The position numbers were made by a program, and so were the translations under genes. DNA of 64,000 bases from Acididesulfobacillus acetoxydans (GTDB lineage: Bacteria > Bacillota > Desulfitobacteriia > Desulfitobacteriales > Desulfitobacteriaceae), in NCBI RefSeq assembly GCF_902729405.1, contig NZ_LR746496.1:1-64000 (forward strand). The letters are read 5' to 3'. Under the pieces are notes generated by a model. It saw only the letters and a list, made by a program, of their open reading frames with translations. It was not told the origin of the DNA and searched no databases. Within the stretch, counting starts at the first letter, position 1; the number at the start of each line of letters is the position of its first letter. Of this stretch, positions 13,860 to 45,864 are shown one piece after another.

Positions 13860-13890
13860 ACAAAAGCATAATTTCACGCTCTGTGCCTGC

Positions 13891-14094
13891 GGCGTTAGTC
13901 ATCCTCAGCCGTCGGGTCATCCTGTGATAGCGTGCGGCTTCGGCGTTAGTCATCCTCAGCCGTCGGGTCATCCTGTGATAGCGTGCGGCTTCGGCGTTAG
14001 TCATCCTCAGCCGTCGGATCATCCTGTGATAGCGTGCGGCTTCGGCGTTAGTCATCCTCAGCCGTCGGGTCATCCTGTGATAGCGTGCGGCTTC
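13891..14094. repeat. four tandem 51-bp repeats
   Basis: Four near-identical units beginning GGCGTTAGTCATCCTCAG start at 13891, 13942, 13993 and 14044, with a truncated fifth start at 14095. The third differs by one base (CGGATC for CGGGTC). GTCATCCT occurs twice per unit. The copies are directly abutting with no unique spacers. Confidence 0.85.
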
Positions 14095-14099
14095 GGCGT

Positions 14100-14148
14100 T
14101 AGTCTCCACCGGAGACTAACGTCACCGGAGACTAACGTCACCGGAGAC
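14100..14148. repeat. palindrome and 16-bp tandem repeats
   Basis: TTAGTCTCC-ACC-GGAGACTAA forms a hairpin with the same ACC loop as element B, and CACCGGAGACTAACGT is repeated about 2.7 times. Confidence 0.6.
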
Positions 14149-14315
14149 TTCGCAAGTTCACTTCGAGTTCGCTTTTGAGTTTACTTTATTTTAAGGGAGC
14201 CAAGACAAAAAAGCCAGACCCTTTTGCTCTTCTTTGATCCTCTTGCTCTTCAGAGCCTCGTGCTCTTCTTGAGCCTTGTCCTCCTCTTGCCCTTCTTGCT
14301 CTGCTGTTGCTTTTC

Positions 14316-21328: not shown

Positions 21329-22064
21329 GCCTCCTCCGTAAATCTTCATGGGTCAAACGAGTTAAAGGGTGAATGGGCCGGTGAGACTCTTCCAGGTAAT
21401 GCAGAGTATGTTCGACACAAGTCAAAGTACCCTTCTCTAAACTATGATACAAGGCTTGGCGCAAATTGTCCACCTGCGGAAACTCCCGGCCGGGCTCGGC
21501 CAGGTCGGCACTGTAAATCAGCATCTCCAAGCGGGACATGTTGGGAGCTCCCAAAGTGTGATGAGCGATGGCCGCCAGGATATCCCGGTCGGCCAGGCCG
21601 CAGCAGTTTGCCAGCCAATACGAGACCAGAGGGCCATGCAGAACGGACGGACAGCTCTCGTCTTCCGAGTAACGAATCAAATGCCAACGCTGGGCCAAGC
21701 ACACCTGCTGTTTCTCGGGAATCTCCTTGGCCAAATCATGCAGCAACGCCGCGTAACGGGCACGGGCCGGATCCAAACCGTGCCGCCGTGCCAGGTCTTC
21801 GGCCAGGGAGGCCACTCCCAAAGTATGCCGAAACCTTCTCGCCGAAAGGGTTCTGCCGGCTAAATCCAGGGCTTGCTTTAAATCAGGAGTTTTTAAATCA
21901 GGAGTTTTTAAATCAGTGCTCTTTTTCAAACCAGGGTTTATTTCTAAATCACGACTTTCTTCCGCACCGGGATTTCTTTGCGAGCCAGGGCCTTTTTTCG
22001 AATCCACGCCCTTCTTAACCTCCTTGAGCAGACTCCTCCTCACCCCATCGGCAGTTATCCGCAA
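21312..22064 (-). CDS. yqeK: HD-domain nucleotide hydrolase YqeK
   Basis: Family of Ap4A-degrading (symmetrical) hydrolases. HD metal motifs are visible: RRFRHTLGVASLAEDLA, LLHDLAKE, VLHGPLVSYWL and AAIAHHT...MLIYSADLAEPGR. The first ~65 residues are not part of the domain and contain a five-residue tandem repeat (LKTPD-LKTPD-LKSTD) from a 15-bp DNA repeat; the true start could be further in, near KQALDLAGRTL. The gene overlaps rsfS and follows the RRM gene. Confidence 0.9.
   Translation of the reverse strand: MRITADGVRRSLLKEVKKGVDSKKGPGSQRNPGAEESRDLEINPGLKKSTDLKTPDLKTPDLKQALDLAGRTLSARRFRHTLGVASLAEDLARRHGLDPARARYAALLHDLAKEIPEKQQVCLAQRWHLIRYSEDESCPSVLHGPLVSYWLANCCGLADRDILAAIAHHTLGAPNMSRLEMLIYSADLAEPGREFPQVDNLRQALYHSLEKGTLTCVEHTLHYLEESHRPIHPLTRLTHEDLRRRHGFGT
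21877..21916. repeat. 15-bp tandem repeat inside yqeK 5' end
   Basis: TTTAAATCAGGAGTT occurs twice in tandem, with a partial third copy. It adds five in-frame residues per unit to the non-conserved N-terminal tail. Confidence 0.75.
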
Positions 22065-35105: not shown

Positions 35106-35155
35106 CTTAAGCCCTCCTTTTACTCGCGCTCCCTGGAACGCTAAATATTCACCGG

Positions 35156-35220
35156 AACTTCCCCATACACTGGGACTTTTCCATACACTGGAACTTTTCC
35201 ATACACTGATACTTGCCGAT
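35156..35220. repeat. 18-bp tandem repeats upstream of livK
   Basis: Three imperfect 18-bp units with core ACTTTTCCATACACTGGA and a decayed fourth, between the acyl-CoA synthetase stop and livK. Confidence 0.7.
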
Positions 35221-35240: not shown

Positions 35241-36803
35241 TCACCGCTGCTCACTGAGATATCCCTTGTTCTCTTCCCTTTTTTCTTTTTTCTTTGACTT
35301 CAGCTCCCGTTTGAGAATTTTTCCGGCCGCACTGTGCGGCAGAAAAGGACGGAATTCCACTTCTTTGGGCACCTTGTACCCCGCCAGGCGCGTGCGGCAG
35401 TAGGCCATCACCTCCTCAGCCGTCAGACTGGCTCCGGGTCTCAGCACGAGAAAAGCCTTCGGCACTTCCCCCCATTTTTCATGTGCCACCCCGACGACAG
35501 CTGCTTCTTGGATATCCGGATGGCTGTAAAGCACTGTTTCCACCTCGACGGGGTAAATGTTCTCACCCCCGCTGATAATGAGATCTTTCTTGCGGTCCAC
35601 GATGAAATAGTAGCCTTCCTCGTCCCGGCAGGCCAAGTCTCCGGTGCGAAACCAGCCGTCCTCAAAGGCGGCCTCCGTCGCCGCCGCATTATGCCAATAG
35701 CCCTGGCTGGTATGATTCCCTTTGATCAGCAGCTCGCCCACCTCATTCACCCCCGCTTCCGGGCCGTCTTCGGAGATGATTTTTACCGCACTGTGGAAAA
35801 CGGGTTTGCCGACAGAACCCATCTTGCGGCGCATATCGGCCGAATTCAGGGCAAAGCAGTTGGGCCCCACTTCCGTCAAGCCATATCCCTGCTTAAAGGC
35901 AAGCCCTTTGCGCCAGTAAGCTTCATAGACCGCGGGCGGGCAGGGCGCCCCGCCGGAAATACAGAAACGTACCGATGACCAATCCGCGCCGGCAAAGTCC
36001 TTTTCGGCCGCCATCATCTGAAACATGGTCGGAACCATGAACACGACCGTCGCTTTTTCCTCGCTGATCAGTTTAATGGCTCCCGCCGGTTGAAAAACCC
36101 CGGGCAAGAGGAGGGTTCCACCCAGATGGATTAAAGGGGTTGTCAGGACATTGAGACCTCCGGTATGAAAGAACGGTGTGAAAATAGGAGCAACATCCGC
36201 AGCAGTGAGTTCCCAACTGATCGCCGTGTTCACGGCATTCCAGGTAACCATGCGCTGAGAGAGAAGGGCCCCCTTGGGGAAGCCGGTCGTACCCCCGGTG
36301 TAGAGGAGCAGCCAGGCGGATTCGAGCGAGCGCCAGGGACGCGGAAAATCCCCGTGCAACGTTTCGCTCATGATTTTTGAAAACAGGCAATCTTCCGTCT
36401 TCCCCGCGGCCAAGGAAATAGACCATTCTGCCCCCGCCGCGGCCCTGATGGCCGCCGCCTCCTTCAGACCCGGATCGTAGAGGAGAACGCGAGGCGCACT
36501 GTCTCGCAATATGTACTCCAATTCGCCCCGGCTGAGGCGGAAGTTTAAGGGCACAAGCACCGCTCCCAACTTCTGCGCGGCAAACAGAGCGAGCAAATGC
36601 TCCGGACGGTTTTGAGCCAGGATCGCCAAACGATCCCCCTCCCTGAGTCCTGTCTCGTGATAAAGGAACGCCGCCAGCTTCTCACTTCGCTCGTTTAACA
36701 CGGAATACGTCAGACGCTCTCCGCTGACCGTGTCAATGACAGCCGGGTGGTGCGGCGAAAGTTCTGAACGCCGGAGCAGCCAGTCCACCGCATACATCAG
36801 CAT
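35241..36803 (-). CDS. acyl-CoA synthetase (AMP-forming), long-chain/aromatic acid type
   Basis: 520-residue ANL-family enzyme that activates a carboxylic acid with ATP and CoA. Motifs: P-loop YTGGTTGFPKGALLS, GYGLTEVGP, and the C-terminal hinge and catalytic Lys region VDRKKDLIISGGENIYPVEVE and HSAAGKILKREL. Chain-length or aromatic specificity cannot be read from the sequence. GGGAGG precedes the ATG. It starts 1 bp after the TetR gene, so the two are probably co-transcribed, and livK follows. Confidence 0.92.
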   Translation of the reverse strand: MLMYAVDWLLRRSELSPHHPAVIDTVSGERLTYSVLNERSEKLAAFLYHETGLREGDRLAILAQNRPEHLLALFAAQKLGAVLVPLNFRLSRGELEYILRDSAPRVLLYDPGLKEAAAIRAAAGAEWSISLAAGKTEDCLFSKIMSETLHGDFPRPWRSLESAWLLLYTGGTTGFPKGALLSQRMVTWNAVNTAISWELTAADVAPIFTPFFHTGGLNVLTTPLIHLGGTLLLPGVFQPAGAIKLISEEKATVVFMVPTMFQMMAAEKDFAGADWSSVRFCISGGAPCPPAVYEAYWRKGLAFKQGYGLTEVGPNCFALNSADMRRKMGSVGKPVFHSAVKIISEDGPEAGVNEVGELLIKGNHTSQGYWHNAAATEAAFEDGWFRTGDLACRDEEGYYFIVDRKKDLIISGGENIYPVEVETVLYSHPDIQEAAVVGVAHEKWGEVPKAFLVLRPGASLTAEEVMAYCRTRLAGYKVPKEVEFRPFLPHSAAGKILKRELKSKKKEKREENKGYLSEQR

Positions 36804-36804
36804 C

Positions 36805-37455
36805 CTACCTCCCTTCTCTATCGCTCAAACCCTCCATGATCATCGTCATGGCGTCGTTTATGACGGACTTGGGCACATCTTTTTCTTCCCACAGGATCCA
36901 ACGCATGCCCAGGGCATCCGCGATTCCCATCAGGGCATAGGCCACGGTCTCCGCGTCCAGGCTGCGAAATTCGCCTGTCTCCATCGCGGCCTGCAGTCCA
37001 TGCACATACCCCTTGGCGAGCCGCCGATAGTACCATTTATAGAGTTCCTCATCAACAAATTCCGCTTCCTGAACAATCCGGTAGAGGTTTCGGTGCTTTT
37101 TTACATAAGAGAAGAAAGCCGCCAAGCCTTTTTCCTCAGCCTCCCGCCTCCCCTTCGCTCCCGCCAAGGCCTGGCTGACCTCCCGGCGCAAATTGTGGCT
37201 TAGGTCCCGGACCAATTGTTCGAAGATATCCTGTTTGCCCGGGAAATAGACGTAAAATGTACCCTGGGCCACCCCTGCCTTTAAAGTAATATCCACGACT
37301 GAGGTACGAAAATACCCCTTGCTTCCGATCACTTCTTCGGCCGCACTCAGGAGTTTTTGCCGCGTGGCCTCCCCCTTGACCGTCTTGGCCTGGAAGGTGC
37401 TCCCGGCCTTTTTCCCTGCCGCTTCGTTTTCTGCCGTATGTGCCAAAGCCATCAC
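36805..37455 (-). CDS. TetR/AcrR-family transcriptional regulator
   Basis: About 216 residues: N-terminal helix-turn-helix (TRQKLLSAAEEVIGSKGYFRTSVVDITLKAGVAQGTFYVYFPGKQDIFEQL) and a ligand domain of the FadR/acyl-CoA-binding kind. Start is GTG at 37455 or ATG at 37452. It directly precedes the acyl-CoA synthetase gene, so an acyl-CoA-responsive repressor of this cluster is plausible (inference). Confidence 0.92.
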   Translation of the reverse strand: MMALAHTAENEAAGKKAGSTFQAKTVKGEATRQKLLSAAEEVIGSKGYFRTSVVDITLKAGVAQGTFYVYFPGKQDIFEQLVRDLSHNLRREVSQALAGAKGRREAEEKGLAAFFSYVKKHRNLYRIVQEAEFVDEELYKWYYRRLAKGYVHGLQAAMETGEFRSLDAETVAYALMGIADALGMRWILWEEKDVPKSVINDAMTMIMEGLSDREGR

Positions 37456-37481
37456 CTCATCGTTATGTCATCTCAGCCGTT

Positions 37482-37510
37482 ATTATATCACCGGCGCCAT
37501 CTCCGGTCAC
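37482..37510 (-). promoter_or_regulatory. extended -10 promoter and inverted repeat ahead of tetR
   Basis: Minus strand TGATATAAT (TG-N-TATAAT) with weak -35 GTGACC. ACCGG-N8-CCGGT lies between the boxes, which would suit an autoregulatory operator, but the arms are only 5 bp. Confidence 0.4.
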
Positions 37511-37532
37511 AGCGCCTCTCGCCCGAGCTTCT

Positions 37533-38345
37533 TCAGCCCTTAGAGCACCCGGATTCGCGCCAAAAACCCAGAACCTGCCGGTTAAACTCCTCCGCCTGTT
37601 CAATGAAGAAGAGGTGCCCCGCCTCCGGAAAAATGAGCAAACGGGCCCCGGGAATTCGCTCTGCCAGTAAAGCGGAGTTTTGCGGCGGTATCACAATATC
37701 CTCCGACCCCGCCAGTACTAAAGTCGGGACCCGGATTTGTCCCAGATCGCTTTCGGCGGCGAAACCCGCCCCGGCCGCAAATTGCCTTTCCCAGGCAAAG
37801 CGCGGCGTGGGCTTATTGAGGCGGCGGTCAACCAGTCGCTCGACGAGGCCCGGCTCCCGGGCCATAAACCCAGAGGAAAAAGCAGCCCGGAAACCCTGAC
37901 GGATGACCTCCGCCGGCGTTAAACCCGCGATCTTTTGCATGCTGTCCAAAGCTTCGGCGGTAATCGGAAGACTACGGGGCCCGCCGAAGGAGGTGCAGGC
38001 CAAGACTAGGCTGCAAACCTGCTCCTGATGACGCAAGGCCAATTTCTGCGCTATAAAACCTCCCATGGATGTACCCAGAACATGAGCTTTGGCGAAGCCC
38101 AGTTGAGTGAGCAGTGCGGCGGCGTCATCGGCCATCAGGTCGATGGAATAAGGTTCGTCAGGCTTTTCGCTCTCCCCCACCCCCCGGTTATCGAAGATGA
38201 CGATCCGGTACGACTTCGCCAGGGCATCAACCTGGCGGAACCATTGCCAGGTGGCATAGCCCAAACCCTCGATTAAAAGAACCGGTTCACCCGAGCCATG
38301 GATCTCGTAATAAAGTTCAATTCCGTTGATCAGGCATTTTGGCAT
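37533..38345 (-). CDS. alpha/beta hydrolase
   Basis: 270-residue hydrolase. Oxyanion region LIEGLGYATWQW, nucleophile GTSMGGF, acid LVLAGSEDIVIPP and His in EAGHLFFIEQ, so the catalytic triad is complete. Substrate unknown. ATG at 38345 has GGGAGGGG; a 48-codon extension is not supported. Same strand and direction as the ketosynthase gene upstream and tetR downstream. Confidence 0.9.
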   Translation of the reverse strand: MPKCLINGIELYYEIHGSGEPVLLIEGLGYATWQWFRQVDALAKSYRIVIFDNRGVGESEKPDEPYSIDLMADDAAALLTQLGFAKAHVLGTSMGGFIAQKLALRHQEQVCSLVLACTSFGGPRSLPITAEALDSMQKIAGLTPAEVIRQGFRAAFSSGFMAREPGLVERLVDRRLNKPTPRFAWERQFAAGAGFAAESDLGQIRVPTLVLAGSEDIVIPPQNSALLAERIPGARLLIFPEAGHLFFIEQAEEFNRQVLGFWRESGCSKG

Positions 38346-38449
38346 TTTAACCCCTCCCTTCGAACACCAAAATAATTGCCCCCGTTGGCCCAAAAAGGCT
38401 TGGCCGCCTGCCCCCGGCTTTTGCCGGCGGGAAGATTCTGTTAAGTGGT

Positions 38450-39475
38450 TCAGGAAGCGCCCCCCCAACGAATGGTCACGGCGTCCCAAGCATACCCTAT
38501 GCCCGCGCTGACCAGTACCACCACATCCCCGTCTTTGATCCGGCCTTGAGCCAAGGCGAGGCGCAAGGAGAGGACCTGGTCTATTTGGCCTAAATGTCCG
38601 TAGTCTTCAAGATAGACGGCCTGTTCTTCCCTTAAACCCAACTCCCGCAGGACCCTCTCATGAGCCGAACGTTTCATATGGAGGATCGCCAGGTAGGCAA
38701 TGTCACTCACTTTATAACCGCTTTGACCGACCGATTCCCGCACGACCCGGACAAAGTTCGCCATGGATTTGGCGTCCAACCTCTTTTTCATACCCTCGGG
38801 GTCAAACACGTCCAGGTAATTTTGCCGCCGGGCCAAGGCCTCGACCGTCATCGGAACCCTGGTGCCGCCCGCCACAACGGCGACATCTTCGGAAAAAGCG
38901 CCGTCCGTAACCACGATGCTCTCCAGAACCCTGTTTCGGGAATATCCTTTCCGCAAAAGGACAGCGGCCCCGCCGGCAGCCAAATTGTAAAGAAAACGCG
39001 CTCTCGGATTGCGGTAATCCACCAAATCCGAATTCCTGTAACCTCCCGCCACCAGAACCGTCTTAATATCCGCATGAGTCAGCATCAAACTCTTGGCCAG
39101 CTTTAAGGCCAAAATAGTTGTGCCGCAGCGCAGAGCTACATCGAAAGCCCAAGCCCGTACGGCCCCAATCTCTTGCTGCAGTTTAATGCCGGCAGTCCAG
39201 ACGGGATACTCTTTATGTTCTTCGCTGACAGAAATAATCAGGTCGATCTCCTCAGGCTTGATTCCCGACTCCGCCAGGGCCCGCTCCGCGGCCCAAATTC
39301 CCATCTGGCAAGTGTGATCTTCAGGTCCGGGCACGGGTTTACGGCGGAAGCCCAATTTCCGCTCAATGACCTCCTGCGGCAGACCGCTGGCGCGAGCCAC
39401 CTCCGCACTGGTCATAAAATGCTCCGGAATGTAGATCCCTGTGCCCATGATCCCAATTGGGACGGTTTCCTGCAT
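38450..39475 (-). CDS. 3-oxoacyl-ACP synthase III-family protein (KAS III/thiolase fold)
   Basis: 341-residue condensing enzyme homologue. Start at ATG 39475 with GGAGGT; the frame extends 61 codons further without support. The acyl-accepting Cys is C117 (VALRCGTTI) and a His is H266 (LAILHMKRSAH). Where FabH has Asn (NYGN) this protein has YGHLGQID with H294, so it is probably not a housekeeping FabH. Neighbouring hydrolase and acyl-CoA synthetase genes suggest a role in acyl-CoA or ketone/lipid chemistry. Confidence 0.85.
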   Translation of the reverse strand: MQETVPIGIMGTGIYIPEHFMTSAEVARASGLPQEVIERKLGFRRKPVPGPEDHTCQMGIWAAERALAESGIKPEEIDLIISVSEEHKEYPVWTAGIKLQQEIGAVRAWAFDVALRCGTTILALKLAKSLMLTHADIKTVLVAGGYRNSDLVDYRNPRARFLYNLAAGGAAVLLRKGYSRNRVLESIVVTDGAFSEDVAVVAGGTRVPMTVEALARRQNYLDVFDPEGMKKRLDAKSMANFVRVVRESVGQSGYKVSDIAYLAILHMKRSAHERVLRELGLREEQAVYLEDYGHLGQIDQVLSLRLALAQGRIKDGDVVVLVSAGIGYAWDAVTIRWGGAS

Positions 39476-40040
39476 CAGCTGCGACCTCCAACAAAACCGA
39501 CGGTTATTGAATACTGACTCACTTATCAATTTCCGGGCCCCAAGACGCGACACGTGCGCAAACGTCCCTCGGAGACGCGTTTTTCCTGCCTGTGGGGCCG
39601 GTTTCCCGGAAACTGTGCCGCCCTTAGCGGTTTGGGCAGGGGATGAGACATGAGTCAATCGTCAACTTTTTTCAGACTCATTATAAAACATCTTCTCTTC
39701 GGCCGGTATGATTTTAGCCCCAAAGGTTGGTTTTCCGGGTTCAACAGTCGTTAGCCTCGGCTCTGAGGTTCAGCCGGCGCTGCAAAGTCGATAGCAATAG
39801 CAATAGCAATGGCAATAGCAATGGCAATGGCAATGGCAATGGCAATGGCAATGGCAATGGCAATGGCAATGGCAATGGCAATGGCAATGGCAATGGCAAT
39901 AGCAATGGCAATGGCAATGGCAATAGCAATGGCAATGGCAATGGCAATGGCAATAGAACAAGTCAGCCGGGACGCCCCCGGTTGGGGACGTCCCGGCTCA
40001 GATCTTAGGCACCGCCCAAACAGACAGCGGTCCCTCACAC
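39476..40040. other. 565-bp spacer with hexanucleotide array
   Basis: Contains a possible -10 TATAAT (39680-39685, minus strand) for the ketosynthase gene, the 162-bp RGCAAT array, and a GC-rich hairpin GCCGGGACG / CGTCCCGGC (about 39965-39996). Open frames across the array are low-complexity artefacts. Confidence 0.7.
39793..39954. repeat. hexanucleotide array (RGCAAT)27
   Basis: 27 perfect tandem 6-bp units: 21 GGCAAT and six AGCAAT variants (units 1, 2, 3, 5, 19 and 23). All six frames are open through it. Expected to vary in copy number by slippage. Confidence 0.95.
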
Positions 40041-41246
40041 TCACACAAGGTTGCGTTCAATTTCCATTCCGGAAGAGGCATTCCTAAGTGTATAGTAATA
40101 TTTGCCGGAGGGAGAAAAGAAGTTGACCCCTTTAGCCAAGAGGGTGCTGCCCTGAGAGTTGATCCGGTAGACTCCGCTTCCGGAACTCACCAGGAGACCC
40201 TGCCCCGACATGCTCACACTCGAGTCGCTGTCCCAAGGCACCTTGCCCTGCCAATGCAGAGAATAATCCGGCCGTTGGGGGCAAGGCTGGTTGTCGGTGA
40301 TCGTCCAAACTTTAATCAGATACCCGTTTTGAACCGTACCCATGTAAAGCTTATTGTTCCAAACCCCCAAGACTTTGTCCAGAGGATTAGAGGCGACCTG
40401 AACCCTTTGACCGGCTTTTTCCGCGACGATCTGCCAGCGGTGATTGTCAAGGGCATCGTAATAAATTGCTCCTCTGTCCGGAGAAACCGCCAGGTGAGCC
40501 ACCTGCTCTCCCCGCCAGCTCACGACCTTGACGTTCTTCATGACATCGACTTCGTAGAGACGGTTTTGTCCCTGATTTTCCGCCGAGAAAAACAGCAGAT
40601 TGGTGGCTGTGGACAAGGAGACCTGAGTGATTTTATCCCATTGCAGGTCAAGAGGAAGGGTCGCCGCATAGCGCTCGTCAACCCCGCTTTGCCCCGCCGC
40701 CATTTCCACGCTGTAGATCCCCACACCCATACGCCCCGGACGGTTGGGATCGGCCCCTACCCCGGATTCGAAGAGGAGGAGCGCCTCCCGGTCCGGCAGC
40801 CATTGATAAGCCATGAGCTTGCCGTTAGGCCGAGGGGCCGTTTGCCAAATGACTTTTTTCTGCTGAAAATCATAAATGTTCAAAGTCGAGTTATTTTGGA
40901 AAGCCAGATAACGGTCATCGTACGAAACCCGGGGATCCTTTACCTGCGAAGCCGGCAAAGGAAAGACCGCCGTCCGGGGCACGAATAATCCCGGCCCGGC
41001 CGTAGAGGGAAACATCACCCGGGAGACCTGCCGATTGAGAAAATAGTACAAGGGAACCTGCCACAGGAGCCCGATAAATACCCAGACCAGGATCTTTCTG
41101 AACCCTGTGTGCTTGCGTTTATAGTGTTCCCGCGGCAGCGGAGCCCGCTCCCTGAACCCGCCGCTTTTGCGCTGAACCGAGTAGTTTCGCCCAAGCGTAT
41201 CCGTATTTTCCGGGTAACTCGCAGCCATCCTTCGATATTGCTCCAT
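40041..41246 (-). CDS. membrane-anchored protein with beta-propeller-like extracytoplasmic domain
   Basis: 401 residues, family not recognised. Residues 1-50 are charged and cytosolic; one membrane helix follows (ILVWVFIGLLWQVPLYYFL), and the rest is predicted outside. That part repeats propeller-type blades: DDRYLAFQNNSTLNIYDFQQ, PDREALLLFESG, NLLFFSAENQGQNRLYEVD and SPDRGAIYYDALD. GGGAAGGG precedes the ATG. It lies 123 bp after a histidine kinase gene on the same strand, so it may be a partner of that signalling system. Confidence 0.75.
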   Translation of the reverse strand: MEQYRRMAASYPENTDTLGRNYSVQRKSGGFRERAPLPREHYKRKHTGFRKILVWVFIGLLWQVPLYYFLNRQVSRVMFPSTAGPGLFVPRTAVFPLPASQVKDPRVSYDDRYLAFQNNSTLNIYDFQQKKVIWQTAPRPNGKLMAYQWLPDREALLLFESGVGADPNRPGRMGVGIYSVEMAAGQSGVDERYAATLPLDLQWDKITQVSLSTATNLLFFSAENQGQNRLYEVDVMKNVKVVSWRGEQVAHLAVSPDRGAIYYDALDNHRWQIVAEKAGQRVQVASNPLDKVLGVWNNKLYMGTVQNGYLIKVWTITDNQPCPQRPDYSLHWQGKVPWDSDSSVSMSGQGLLVSSGSGVYRINSQGSTLLAKGVNFFSPSGKYYYTLRNASSGMEIERNLV

Positions 41247-41369
41247 TTTCCCTTCCCATCTCCATGATTTTATACCCGTCTGTTTCGCTCACCGGCCGTT
41301 CCCGCATGGCGCCTCTCACTTCCGAGACCTCCGCTCTCACTTCCGAAGGCTTCCCGCCCGGTCAGGCCG

Positions 41370-42833
41370 TTACTTTTTGCCTCCCGTCTCCCGCTTGCTA
41401 TGCCTTTCATGCTTCTGATTTCTGGGCTCCGCTTTACTTTCCAGCGGCAGTTCTATGCAAAAACGCGCACCATGCGGGATAACGTTCTCCGCCCAAATGC
41501 GTCCGCCGTGCGCCGTCGTAATTTTCTTCGCAATGCTCAACCCCAAACCGTAACCCGGCACCTCACGCGAGCGGGCCTTATCGACCCGGTAGAAACGGTC
41601 AAATATCCGTTCCAAGGCGTCCGGCGGCAACCCGGGGCCATTGTCCTCGACGGTCAGTCTGGCCTCTTCTTTCTCCTTTAACACAGACAACAATATCTTT
41701 CCGTCTTCCGGGACATATTTGGCGGCGTTCTCCAAGAGGATCCGGGTCAATTGCCTGAGATAGAGGGCATCACCGCAAATGTCCACATCGTCCAACCGGT
41801 ACTCCAAGTGCCGGGTTTGCAGGAACGGCAGGTTTTCAGCCGCCTCCGCCACCACCTCGCCCAGATTCAACTTGACCCTGTTTAAGCGCATATCCTCTCT
41901 CGCTAAGGTCAAAAGATCCTCTACCAGTTTAGCCATGGTCCGGGTCTCTTCCCCGATAGCCTTGGCCGAATCGCGCACCACTTCGGGCTCTTCGGCCCCC
42001 CAGCGCTGCAGGATATCGGCGTGTCCGCTGATCACCATCAAAGGAGTCCTCAACTCATGTGAGGCGTTGGCCACAAACTGTTCCTGCTGCTTAAATGACC
42101 TCTCCAAGCGCTGCAGCATCTGGTTGAAATTCCGGCCCAGCTGATCCAGTTCGTCGCCGTTTCCCCGCAGGGGCAGGCGCCGGTTGAGATCCTCCGCCGT
42201 CAAGCGGGAAATTTCCCGGTTCAAATCTCCCAAGGGATGCAACACTTGGCGGGAAAGAATTAAGCCGCCGATGACCGCCAGCATCAAGGCCGACCCCACT
42301 AACCAGAAGATTTGCTGGAAAAGAACTCTTTCCGCCAATTCGATCTCTTCCAAGTCAATGGCCGCTTGCAGCCAACCCACCTCTTTACCCCCTGAGAAAA
42401 CCGGACGAGCCATATAATAGACATCCTGCCCGTGCAGGATACGAATCTCCGGCCCTTCGCTTCCGGCCACAGGAAGCTGCAATCTCAGCCCGCCGCTTTT
42501 CTGGATCAGAGCTCCCTTCGGGTCCGTCAGCTGAATCACCGCCCCTTTGGGGACTTTTCCTTTCAGGGCATCCGGGTCGCGGATATCCGTCACCTGACCG
42601 TCACGGCCTTCGTTCAGGCCGCTGATAACCTGGCTCACGGCGGTCTCCAGGGCCTGCCTTTTCTCTTGCAGCAAAGCCTCCCGGTTCACCCAGAAAGTCA
42701 GGGCGGAAAGCATCAGCACCGTCACCAAGAGCAAGAGCATATACCAAAACGTAATTTTCCAAACCAATCCCAACCTCGGGCGATCTAACAAAGAGCGCGC
42801 CTTGGCCCGGTCATTCCTCCGCTCTGAGGACAT
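41370..42833 (-). CDS. sensor histidine kinase (HAMP, HisKA)
   Basis: 487-residue membrane kinase: helix 1 (ITFWYMLLLLVTVLMLSALTF), about 120-residue external sensor domain, helix 2 (WLVGSALMLAVIGGLIL), HAMP, phosphorylation site FVANASHELRTPLMVI, N box LENAAKYVP, and G boxes DNGPGLP and GYGLGLSIAKKI. The ATG overlaps the response regulator 3' end by 23 bp. Signal unknown. Confidence 0.94.
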   Translation of the reverse strand: MSSERRNDRAKARSLLDRPRLGLVWKITFWYMLLLLVTVLMLSALTFWVNREALLQEKRQALETAVSQVISGLNEGRDGQVTDIRDPDALKGKVPKGAVIQLTDPKGALIQKSGGLRLQLPVAGSEGPEIRILHGQDVYYMARPVFSGGKEVGWLQAAIDLEEIELAERVLFQQIFWLVGSALMLAVIGGLILSRQVLHPLGDLNREISRLTAEDLNRRLPLRGNGDELDQLGRNFNQMLQRLERSFKQQEQFVANASHELRTPLMVISGHADILQRWGAEEPEVVRDSAKAIGEETRTMAKLVEDLLTLAREDMRLNRVKLNLGEVVAEAAENLPFLQTRHLEYRLDDVDICGDALYLRQLTRILLENAAKYVPEDGKILLSVLKEKEEARLTVEDNGPGLPPDALERIFDRFYRVDKARSREVPGYGLGLSIAKKITTAHGGRIWAENVIPHGARFCIELPLESKAEPRNQKHERHSKRETGGKK

Positions 42834-43521
42834 AGCCCACTCCCCTCACCGTCTGCAGATAATGCACTTGAAACGGCTCGTCGAGCTTACCCCTCAAAAA
42901 ACGCACGTAGACGTCGACGATATTCGTATCGCCATAATAATCGTAACCCCAGACATTTTCCAAAATCATTTCCCGGGAGAGAACGTGCTGCGGATGCTCC
43001 ATGAAAAAAGCGAGCAGCTCGAACTCTTTCTTAGTCAAGTGGATCTCCTGCCCGGAAAAATACACCCGATAAGCCAAAAGATCCAGCTCCAGTTCGCGAA
43101 ACCTGAGACCGCCCTGTTCTCGCGGCGGCTGGGGGTTTTTTCGACGCAGCACCGCCCGCATCCTGGCCAAGAGCTCATCCATGGCAAACGGTTTGGTCAG
43201 GTAATCGTCCGCACCCAGATCCAAGCCCAGGACCTTATCCCTTACTTCACCCTTCGCCGTCAGCAAGAGAATCGGAATGTCTTTTTTCAGCCTGATCTCC
43301 CGGCAAACTTCGTATCCGCTCAGGTATGGCAGCATAATGTCGAGAAGGACAATGTCCCAATCCGATTCCATCGCCCGGCTCAGGCCTGTCTTACCGTCGG
43401 CCGCGAGGCTCACGTGATGCCCCTGGTGCTGCAGTTCCATACTGATAACTTTGGCAATGGCGCGGTCGTCTTCGACCAATAAAACGTTCAGGGGCGCTTC
43501 ACCCTCCGGCCTCCCACTCAT
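42811..43521 (-). CDS. OmpR/PhoB-family response regulator
   Basis: 236 residues: receiver with LLVEDDRAIAK, phospho-acceptor D61 (VLLDIMLP) and K in YLTKPF; C-terminal winged helix (LTKKEFELLAFFMEHPQHVLSREMI...GDTNIVDVYVRFLRGKL). The ATG overlaps the stop of the upstream zinc-ribbon gene as ATGA. Cognate to the overlapping histidine kinase. Confidence 0.95.
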   Translation of the reverse strand: MSGRPEGEAPLNVLLVEDDRAIAKVISMELQHQGHHVSLAADGKTGLSRAMESDWDIVLLDIMLPYLSGYEVCREIRLKKDIPILLLTAKGEVRDKVLGLDLGADDYLTKPFAMDELLARMRAVLRRKNPQPPREQGGLRFRELELDLLAYRVYFSGQEIHLTKKEFELLAFFMEHPQHVLSREMILENVWGYDYYGDTNIVDVYVRFLRGKLDEPFQVHYLQTVRGVGYVLRAEE

Positions 43522-43694
43522 GCGGTCACCAGTTTCCTCTTGACGGCAACCCGGATGACCCGCCCATCCTCGGCAATCCGAAAAACACGGATCCTTTTGC
43601 CTTTTTCCGTCCATTCATGACAGCAGTCGTGACAAAAATAACGATCACGACCGATTCGACCCGAATTATGTCCGTTGCATAATGGGCACTTCAA
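43518..43694 (-). CDS. small zinc-ribbon protein
   Basis: About 58 residues with two Cys pairs, CPLCNGHN and YFCHDCCHEW, as in a zinc ribbon, and a basic tail. The best start is TTG, 8 nt after AGGAGGT (giving MKCPLCNG). Its stop overlaps the response regulator start (ATGA), so the three genes form a coupled unit. Function unknown; it could modulate the regulator or be a stand-alone nucleic-acid-binding protein. Confidence 0.7.
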   Translation of the reverse strand: MKCPLCNGHNSGRIGRDRYFCHDCCHEWTEKGKRIRVFRIAEDGRVIRVAVKRKLVTA

Positions 43695-43876
43695 GTCATC
43701 CACCTCCTGCAAAAGAACGGAAAATGTTCACTTGGTCGTGTATTGACAAGATTATTGGCACTTCTTCGTTCTTTATGTCCATCATGTGTTTGCTGATAAG
43801 GATACACCGCGCAGATTAAAACTCGATTAAAAGCCAGTGAAACTTCAGTGAAGAAAGGGGGAAAGCGGCAGCTGAA

Positions 43877-43939
43877 GCCGTCATTGTCCGGTGGACAATG
43901 ACGGCCGAACTCTGAGTTTAACCCCACCGAAGCGGGGTA
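43877..43939 (-). repeat. composite double-hairpin element B, copy 2
   Basis: Inverted relative to copy 1. Minus strand: hairpin CCCCGC-TTCG-GTGGGG (43922-43937), linker TTAAACTCAGAG, and 13-bp stem GCCGTCATTGTCC / GGACAATGACGGC with loop ACC (43877-43905). The asnB stop codon lies in the linker. Confidence 0.7.
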
Positions 43940-45864
43940 GATAACATCGACTCTCCCCGGTCCCCCTCCGCCTTCCTCCGCTCTGAGCTTGGGATTCCCC
44001 TCCGGCCCCTTATTTCCGAGCGTATATAGCCCAGATAGACTTCCAGAGTGTACAGAGCCCACATAAGGCGGGCCGACCGGGAAGACAGGGGACCCGTGAA
44101 ACGCTCAGCCAGGGCATCCCACCTAAAGTAGCGCCCGATACCGGCCGCCGGGTCCAGAATAACCTCCAGCATTTTCTCCCGCCATTCTCCCTGCATCCAG
44201 GCGGTGACCGGAACCGGGAAGCCGTTCTTGGGCCGCTGCCAGATTTCCCGGGGCAGGTAAGCCCGCAAAGCCTGCCTGAGCACAGTTTTGCTTTCCCGGT
44301 GGGAAACCTTGAAGTTGAGGGGCAAGGCGACGCCAAGTTCGACCAAATGATGGTCAAGATACGGCAGGCGGATTTCCAAGCTATGGGCCATCGTCACCTT
44401 ATCCGACTTCATGAGTGTATTCTCCGGCAGCCAGGAAAGCATATCAAAGCGCAGCATACGCTGTTCCTCAGGCCAATGTTCATCCCCTAACTCTTCCAGA
44501 CCGTGAAAGGACTTAACTCGCAGTTCGGCCCAGACATCCGGCCGATACAGCCCCTCTTTGTGATCCGGACGCAACAGCCCGCCCACACCAAAATATCTTT
44601 CCGGCAGGCTGAGACTGAAGCGCCTCGTCTGCGCGGGAAAAGCACCTTCGGCACAAGCGCGCAGCCAGCCCGGCAGGGCCCGGTAGCGCCGGCATTGCAG
44701 CGGTTCCCGGTAGACCGTGTACCCGCCGAAAAGTTCGTCCGCCCCCTCACCGGAAAAAATCACTTTTTCTCCCGCGGCGGCGGCAAATTCCGCCAGGAAA
44801 TAGAGCGGCAGCGCGGTCGGATCGGCAATCGGCTCATCCATAGCCAAAATGACCTCGGCCAGCCTCTCCTCCACTTCGCGCCGAGTCACAAGCCGTTCCC
44901 TGTGCACCGTTCCCAAGAGCTTGGCCGCAGCCCTGGCCTGCTCCAGTTCCGAGAAATAACGATAATCACGCGTCTTCTCCGGCTGCTCAAAACCCACCGC
45001 ATAGGTACGCGCAGGTTCTGCGCGCGATTTTTGATGCAAGGCCGCCAGCCCGGCCGAATCAAGTCCGCCGCTGAAAAAGTACCCGGCCGGCACCTCCTCA
45101 GGCCAGCGGATCTGCCAGGCATCGTTCAAGGCTTCGTCCACTCTCTGCACGGCCTCGGACATGGACAGAGCCAGAGATTCCTCCGGCAAACGCCAGTATC
45201 TCACCCGGCGGGCATCCAAACGCTCGCCCCGCCAGCCGACGATGAGGCTGGTCCCGGGCTCAAGTTTGCGAATGTGTCTGAAAAGGGTATAGGGCGCCGG
45301 AACATAACGGTAACTCAGGTATTGGTCCAAAGCCTCCAAGTCCACTTGAGGATCTTCCACTCCGTGCAGCAAAGCCTTTAACTCCGAAGCGAAGCAGAGA
45401 TCGCTGCGGCTTTCGTTCAGATAAAAGTAGAGAGGCTTAACCCCCAGTCGATCCCGGCTGAGCAGCAAACGCCGCCGGCGCCCGTCCCAGAGAGCCAAGG
45501 CAAAGGTCCCCCGCAAATGGGCCGGAAAGGTGAATCCGTATTCTTCGTACAGGTGAGCAATCACTTCTCCGTCCCCGCCCTGGCCGAAGCGATGCCCCCG
45601 TTTGCCCAGGCTTTCCTTGAGAGATTTATAATTATAAATCTCCCCGTTGAAGACGACGCGAATGTGGCCCCCTTCGTTTTGAAACGGCTGGTGTGCGGCC
45701 CCCCGCTCCACAATCGCCAGGCGCCTAAACCCTAAACCGATGTTTCTTCCCACATAGAAGGCTTCTTCGTCCGGCCCGCGATGTTGCAGCGAACCGGTCA
45801 TCACCCGCAGCAACGGCATATCAACCCGTTGGGTGCCGGTCAGAAGCCCGCAAATTCCGCACAT
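43918..45864 (-). CDS. asnB: asparagine synthase (glutamine-hydrolysing)
   Basis: Cytosolic amidotransferase making asparagine from aspartate, ATP and glutamine. 648 residues: class II glutaminase with Cys2 (MCGICGLL), RLAIV, NGEIYNY and GDGEV; synthetase domain with FSGGLDSAGLAAL and SGEGADELFGGY. The last ~25 residues (after YIRSEIRGRRG) are not conserved, and the final LRWG plus stop are encoded by the dispersed element B. It stands alone, with no operon partner. Could act on another carboxylate, as asnB paralogues do. Confidence 0.92.
   Translation of the reverse strand: MCGICGLLTGTQRVDMPLLRVMTGSLQHRGPDEEAFYVGRNIGLGFRRLAIVERGAAHQPFQNEGGHIRVVFNGEIYNYKSLKESLGKRGHRFGQGGDGEVIAHLYEEYGFTFPAHLRGTFALALWDGRRRRLLLSRDRLGVKPLYFYLNESRSDLCFASELKALLHGVEDPQVDLEALDQYLSYRYVPAPYTLFRHIRKLEPGTSLIVGWRGERLDARRVRYWRLPEESLALSMSEAVQRVDEALNDAWQIRWPEEVPAGYFFSGGLDSAGLAALHQKSRAEPARTYAVGFEQPEKTRDYRYFSELEQARAAAKLLGTVHRERLVTRREVEERLAEVILAMDEPIADPTALPLYFLAEFAAAAGEKVIFSGEGADELFGGYTVYREPLQCRRYRALPGWLRACAEGAFPAQTRRFSLSLPERYFGVGGLLRPDHKEGLYRPDVWAELRVKSFHGLEELGDEHWPEEQRMLRFDMLSWLPENTLMKSDKVTMAHSLEIRLPYLDHHLVELGVALPLNFKVSHRESKTVLRQALRAYLPREIWQRPKNGFPVPVTAWMQGEWREKMLEVILDPAAGIGRYFRWDALAERFTGPLSSRSARLMWALYTLEVYLGYIRSEIRGRRGIPSSERRKAEGDRGESMLSTPLRWG

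Follow-up and report, generated by a model that had tools for sequence, protein, structure and literature searches.

Hexanucleotide repeats in bacteria have been described in Haemophilus influenzae, where, according to a study of four genomes (PMC2651432), 8 of 10 such repeats lie in open reading frames; the authors report no evidence from the four genomes that hexanucleotide repeats mediate phase variation. One non-coding repeat, TTAAAA, has 2–3 units and varies between relatives, and in most of the further genomes examined in that study hexanucleotide repeats were seen more often. Long simple sequence repeats of prokaryotes in general are sporadic and have slippage as their proposed origin (Mrazek et al. 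2007, as related in PMC4679880). The TAACTGA repeats of Beggiatoaceae and cyanobacteria, also described in PMC4679880, have seven-base units, occupy many loci and, in Beggiatoaceae, lie mostly near start codons.

The locus described here is an intergenic array of 27 RGCAAT units in Acididesulfobacillus acetoxydans, found in a stretch of 64,000 nucleotides (the window). It lies between two genes that are both encoded on the minus strand, as are all eight genes examined around it (35241–45864). The elements of the locus are as follows.

38450–39475, minus strand: downstream gene, beta-ketoacyl-ACP synthase III-like (NF005308/PRK06840), the ketosynthase; protein 93% identical in the sister species.
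39476–39792, minus strand: the 317 bp that precede the ketosynthase gene; the sister species has this region too, with substitutions and two 1-nt indels.
39793–39954, no strand assigned (unit read on the plus strand): hexanucleotide array (RGCAAT)27, defined by sequence, TRF and script; unique in its own genome, with (AGCGAT)2 as its counterpart in the sister species.
39965–39998, minus strand: strong hairpin with a 15-bp stem just behind the upstream gene, found by a terminator-like scan and RNA folding and carrying one compensatory pair.
40041–41246, minus strand: upstream gene, 401 amino acids, with no NCBIfam or Pfam match at E ≤ 0.001; protein 92% identical in the sister species.

The note's name for the upstream gene, a propeller gene, finds no confirmation in the family searches. 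The ketosynthase scores 509.8 bits against NF005308, for a curated cut-off of 315. Its ATG is at 39475, with a Shine-Dalgarno-like GGAGG visible in front of it, and it is followed by genes for an alpha/beta hydrolase, a TetR-type regulator and an AMP-binding ligase, all three with Pfam matches above cut-off and NCBIfam matches below theirs.

An earlier note on this DNA had described 27 RGCAAT units without any length error and with a few A/G substitutions, and the sequence, TRF and a script all return the same array, free of indels. The variation is confined to A or G at the first base of the unit: 21 units are GGCAAT and six are AGCAAT, the latter at positions 1, 2, 3, 5, 19 and 23. The distances given in that note (about 320 bp and 87 bp) also hold, the array being separated by 317 bp from the ketosynthase ATG and by 86 bp from the stop of the upstream gene. 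Across 200 mononucleotide shuffles of the window, RGCAAT runs reach two units at most, so the array is not a product of chance; its head-to-tail units, in the 1–6 bp range and well beyond chance, are those of a microsatellite. Other tandem repeats in the window are a minisatellite at 13890–14149 (51 bp × 4.2 with 98% matches; perfect 16-bp units × 2.7 come almost directly after it) and two short tandem repeats, at 35150–35208 (18 bp × 3.3) and 21877–21916 (15 bp × 2.7).

The note had also held that all six frames are open across the array. The script finds five: the plus-strand frame that reads CAA TRG contains five TAG stops inside the array. The five open frames are dictated by the repeat unit itself. 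It is exceedingly improbable that the array encodes a dipeptide repeat (such as GN/SN on the plus strand or IA on the minus strand) within a small protein. Open reading frames of 63–97 amino acids do cross or contain most of the array, but one of them (39751–40044, minus strand) would have to run through the terminator-like hairpin, and the repeat is absent in the sister species and lies inside no frame that is kept there.

The sister species (G001), the only other species of the genus compared, with one genome per species, keeps both genes and their order. The array site reads GTC-AGCGAT-AGCGAT-AGAACAAG in the sister and GTC-GAT-(RGCAAT)27-AGAACAAG in the window, so that the same point of the same spacer has two units there (AGCGAT) and 27 here, and the site accounts for a length difference of 153 nt between the species. 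Outside the array, the spacer alignment comprises 421 aligned bases with 47 substitutions and two 1-nt indels; inside the array, it comprises 12 aligned bases with 4 substitutions. A copy number that differs at one site between close relatives is a further mark of a microsatellite. We consider it highly unlikely that the difference reflects an assembly error here or a repeat collapse in the sister. The sister genome is indeed a draft of ~60 contigs, but the window lies on a single contig of 4.52 Mb, and what the sister has is two units of a different word, AGCGAT. A collapsed repeat copy is expected to keep GGCAAT units over about one k-mer length. As assembly collapse is not expected to change the word into AGCGAT, we take the two-unit state of the sister to be real.

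With 2 and 27 units at the same site in sister species, a recent expansion by replication slippage looks likely, and the earlier note's appeal to slippage gains support from this length change between species. We conclude with good confidence that the array is an intergenic hexanucleotide microsatellite that grew by slippage from a two-unit seed and was tolerated in a spacer where transcription is probably low. In this scenario, the starting point would have been a two-unit AGCRAT seed like that seen in the sister, which would have grown by slipped-strand mispairing at replication in the lineage of A. acetoxydans after the species split. G/A changes at the first base would have arisen along the way and been copied together with whole units; judging from the unit order AAAGAGGGGGGGGGGGGGAGGGAGGGG, a four-unit block A-GGG may have been duplicated as one such step. 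A point against this scenario is that the unit is of the GCGAT type in the sister and of the GCAAT type here, so that a substitution must also have spread. Loss in the sister instead of growth here is conceivable, the direction being read from two species without an outgroup for the spacer: among 41 genomes, the sister alone has a close relative of the upstream gene.

Growth would have been tolerated because of where the array sits, in a probably little-transcribed spacer between a terminator-like hairpin and the presumed promoter region of the ketosynthase. The terminator, the promoter and the neutrality of the site are inferred. The hairpin follows the stop of the upstream gene and precedes the array. 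As RNA, its surrounding 90 nt fold at −51.4 kcal/mol (z −5.3), the matching 101 nt of the sister give z −4.6, and one G-C pair of the stem corresponds to A-T in the sister. These folding scores, together with the compensatory pair, suggest a terminator, and the hairpin is probably one despite a tail poor in T. The terminator-like scan in itself carries no evidence, as it reports 7 sites in 5 kb where shuffles lead one to expect 6.6. An Rfam search of the window at gathering scores returned no RNA family.

The hairpin also bears on the proposal that a read-through or intercistronic mRNA includes the array, which would change how stable that mRNA is or how it is translated. The shared orientation of the eight genes suits such a transcript, and with so few T residues in the hairpin tail termination may leak. 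Against this stand the hairpin itself, strong and with its compensatory pair, between the upstream gene and the array, and the folding of the array: folded as DNA, not RNA, the minus strand (the transcript sense) has less structure than its shuffles do (z +5.1), the plus strand being like its shuffles (z −0.9). We regard an effect of this kind as unlikely.

A similarly unlikely reading is that the array is a length-variable regulatory element, the number of units setting spacing, DNA shape or protein binding and thereby tuning transcription of the ketosynthase cluster. The array does lie upstream of the ketosynthase and does differ in length between species, and repeats near the promoters of some phase-variable surface-protein genes tune transcription, as mentioned in PMC4679880. 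However, the array is 317 bp from the start codon, the sister has two units and keeps the remaining region, and a consensus promoter scan of 39476–39954 reported no site. A possible operator lies much nearer the gene than the array does: an imperfect palindrome, TGAATACTGACTCACTTATCA, found by eye at 39508–39528 in front of the ketosynthase and identical in the sister. It is possibly an operator for the TetR-type regulator (36805–37455), and would be more plausible than the array as a control site. Searched with a slightly degenerate pattern of the palindrome, the genome yields no further match below three mismatches and two at three; the reversed control yields one. With no enrichment of the palindrome's core, TGACTCA, in the window (4 occurrences against 4.4 expected), the operator assignment stays a guess. 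The region 39476–39792 as a whole is presumed to hold the ketosynthase promoter.

Even less probable in our view is that the array was gained recently as a protein-binding platform or a spacer of adjustable length and alters transcription of the neighbouring cluster in A. acetoxydans, a tunable repeat that would act from a distance upstream of the ketosynthase, alpha/beta hydrolase, TetR-type regulator and AMP-binding ligase genes. The suggestion of the earlier note that slippage tunes expression or mRNA stability finds no support here. The sister does without the long array and has the two genes in the same order, with the hairpin and most of the spacer in place; the array itself stands beyond the 317-bp region and behind the terminator-like hairpin, and its transcript-sense strand has the weak DNA fold given above.

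In our judgement the array is an ordinary microsatellite and probably neutral, long for its kind and species-specific among the genomes compared. In the 4.52-Mb genome of A. acetoxydans, no second RGCAAT array was found when four units were sought with up to 2 mismatches in 24 bases, and this single locus contrasts with the several copies per genome of a dispersed repeat family. In 400 kb of the genome, sampled as 20 evenly spaced stretches of 20 kb, there is no perfect period-6 run of at least four units, and a two-unit RGCRAT seed occurs once, both strands being counted. The only perfect run of at least four units with a period of 4–12 in this sample is an 11-bp repeat, TATAGGTCATG, with five perfect units (L266:2912-2966). 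The 27-unit array is an outlier in a genome apparently poor in such runs, which leaves chance growth at this single site not fully accounted for.

No run of at least four exact units was found in the 60 relatives searched besides the genome itself; over all 61, RGCAAT runs occur in one (A. acetoxydans) and the reversed control word in one. A ketosynthase match at E ≤ 1e-60 is present in 5 of 41 genomes, A. acetoxydans and its sister included. Two order-level relatives of the ketosynthase (L248 and L249) are 75–76% identical, and the sequences in front of them (600 bp and 368 bp, respectively) contain no perfect tandem run of at least three units with a period of 3–12. The same holds for 600 bp in front of each of two more distant matches (L250 and L251); the best match in L252 is the same gene as in L248.

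In a sample of the phylum, RGCAAT runs of at least four units occur in 6 of 398 genomes, A. acetoxydans included, and the reversed control word in 2 of 398, a rarity of the control that counts against the slippage explanation. Among named genomes, runs of at least five units were found in unrelated bacteria in at least 119 stretches. The longest perfect run has 5–9 units in 94 of the 119 listed stretches and 10 or more in 25, and two of these exceed 27 units (31 and 247), so that the description of the array as long for a bacterial microsatellite is a fair one. The 31-unit run, from Shewanella surugensis, is 5 bases away from the end of a contig. The 247 perfect units, ~1.5 kb, are on a draft contig of Stutzerimonas chloritidismutans AW-1 (L103:5104-6585) and could be real or an effect of assembly. 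A crude open-frame test places 72 of the listed 119 stretches inside a long open frame and 28 outside one, the other 19 being close to a fragment end.

Viral contigs contain 22 stretches of at least five RGCAAT units, against 12 of TAACGR, 1 of RCGAAT and 34 of RACTGA. RGCAAT is not clearly commoner than these control words, and we rejected the idea of a special motif. A mobile or shared element was rejected as well: the non-repeat flanks of the array were compared with 141 other array loci (119 genomic, 22 from viral contigs) and none matched at E ≤ 0.01, while the sister was found as a positive control. A plasmid search with 39480–40040 gave no match.

With 2 units in one species and 27 in the other in an otherwise alignable spacer, the locus is a small, clean example of length change in a bacterial microsatellite, and strains of A. 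acetoxydans could be typed with it. Were expression to depend on its length, the locus would amount to a natural tunable repeat lying upstream of a lipid-type gene cluster. Like the H. influenzae repeats of PMC2651432, the array has six-base units, which occur there in non-coding DNA too, and the copy number of a non-coding locus varies in both; unlike the TTAAAA repeat, with 2–3 units compared between strains, it has 27 units and is compared between species. It shares with the TAACTGA repeats of PMC4679880 that these are short direct intergenic repeats and that some related strains differ by whole units, but it is one six-base locus, 317 bp from a start codon. Finally, its run far beyond chance and slippage as the proposed origin are shared with the long prokaryotic repeats described in PMC4679880, from which it differs as a single locus in a genome that is repeat-poor where sampled; the locus fits among these sporadic long simple repeats.
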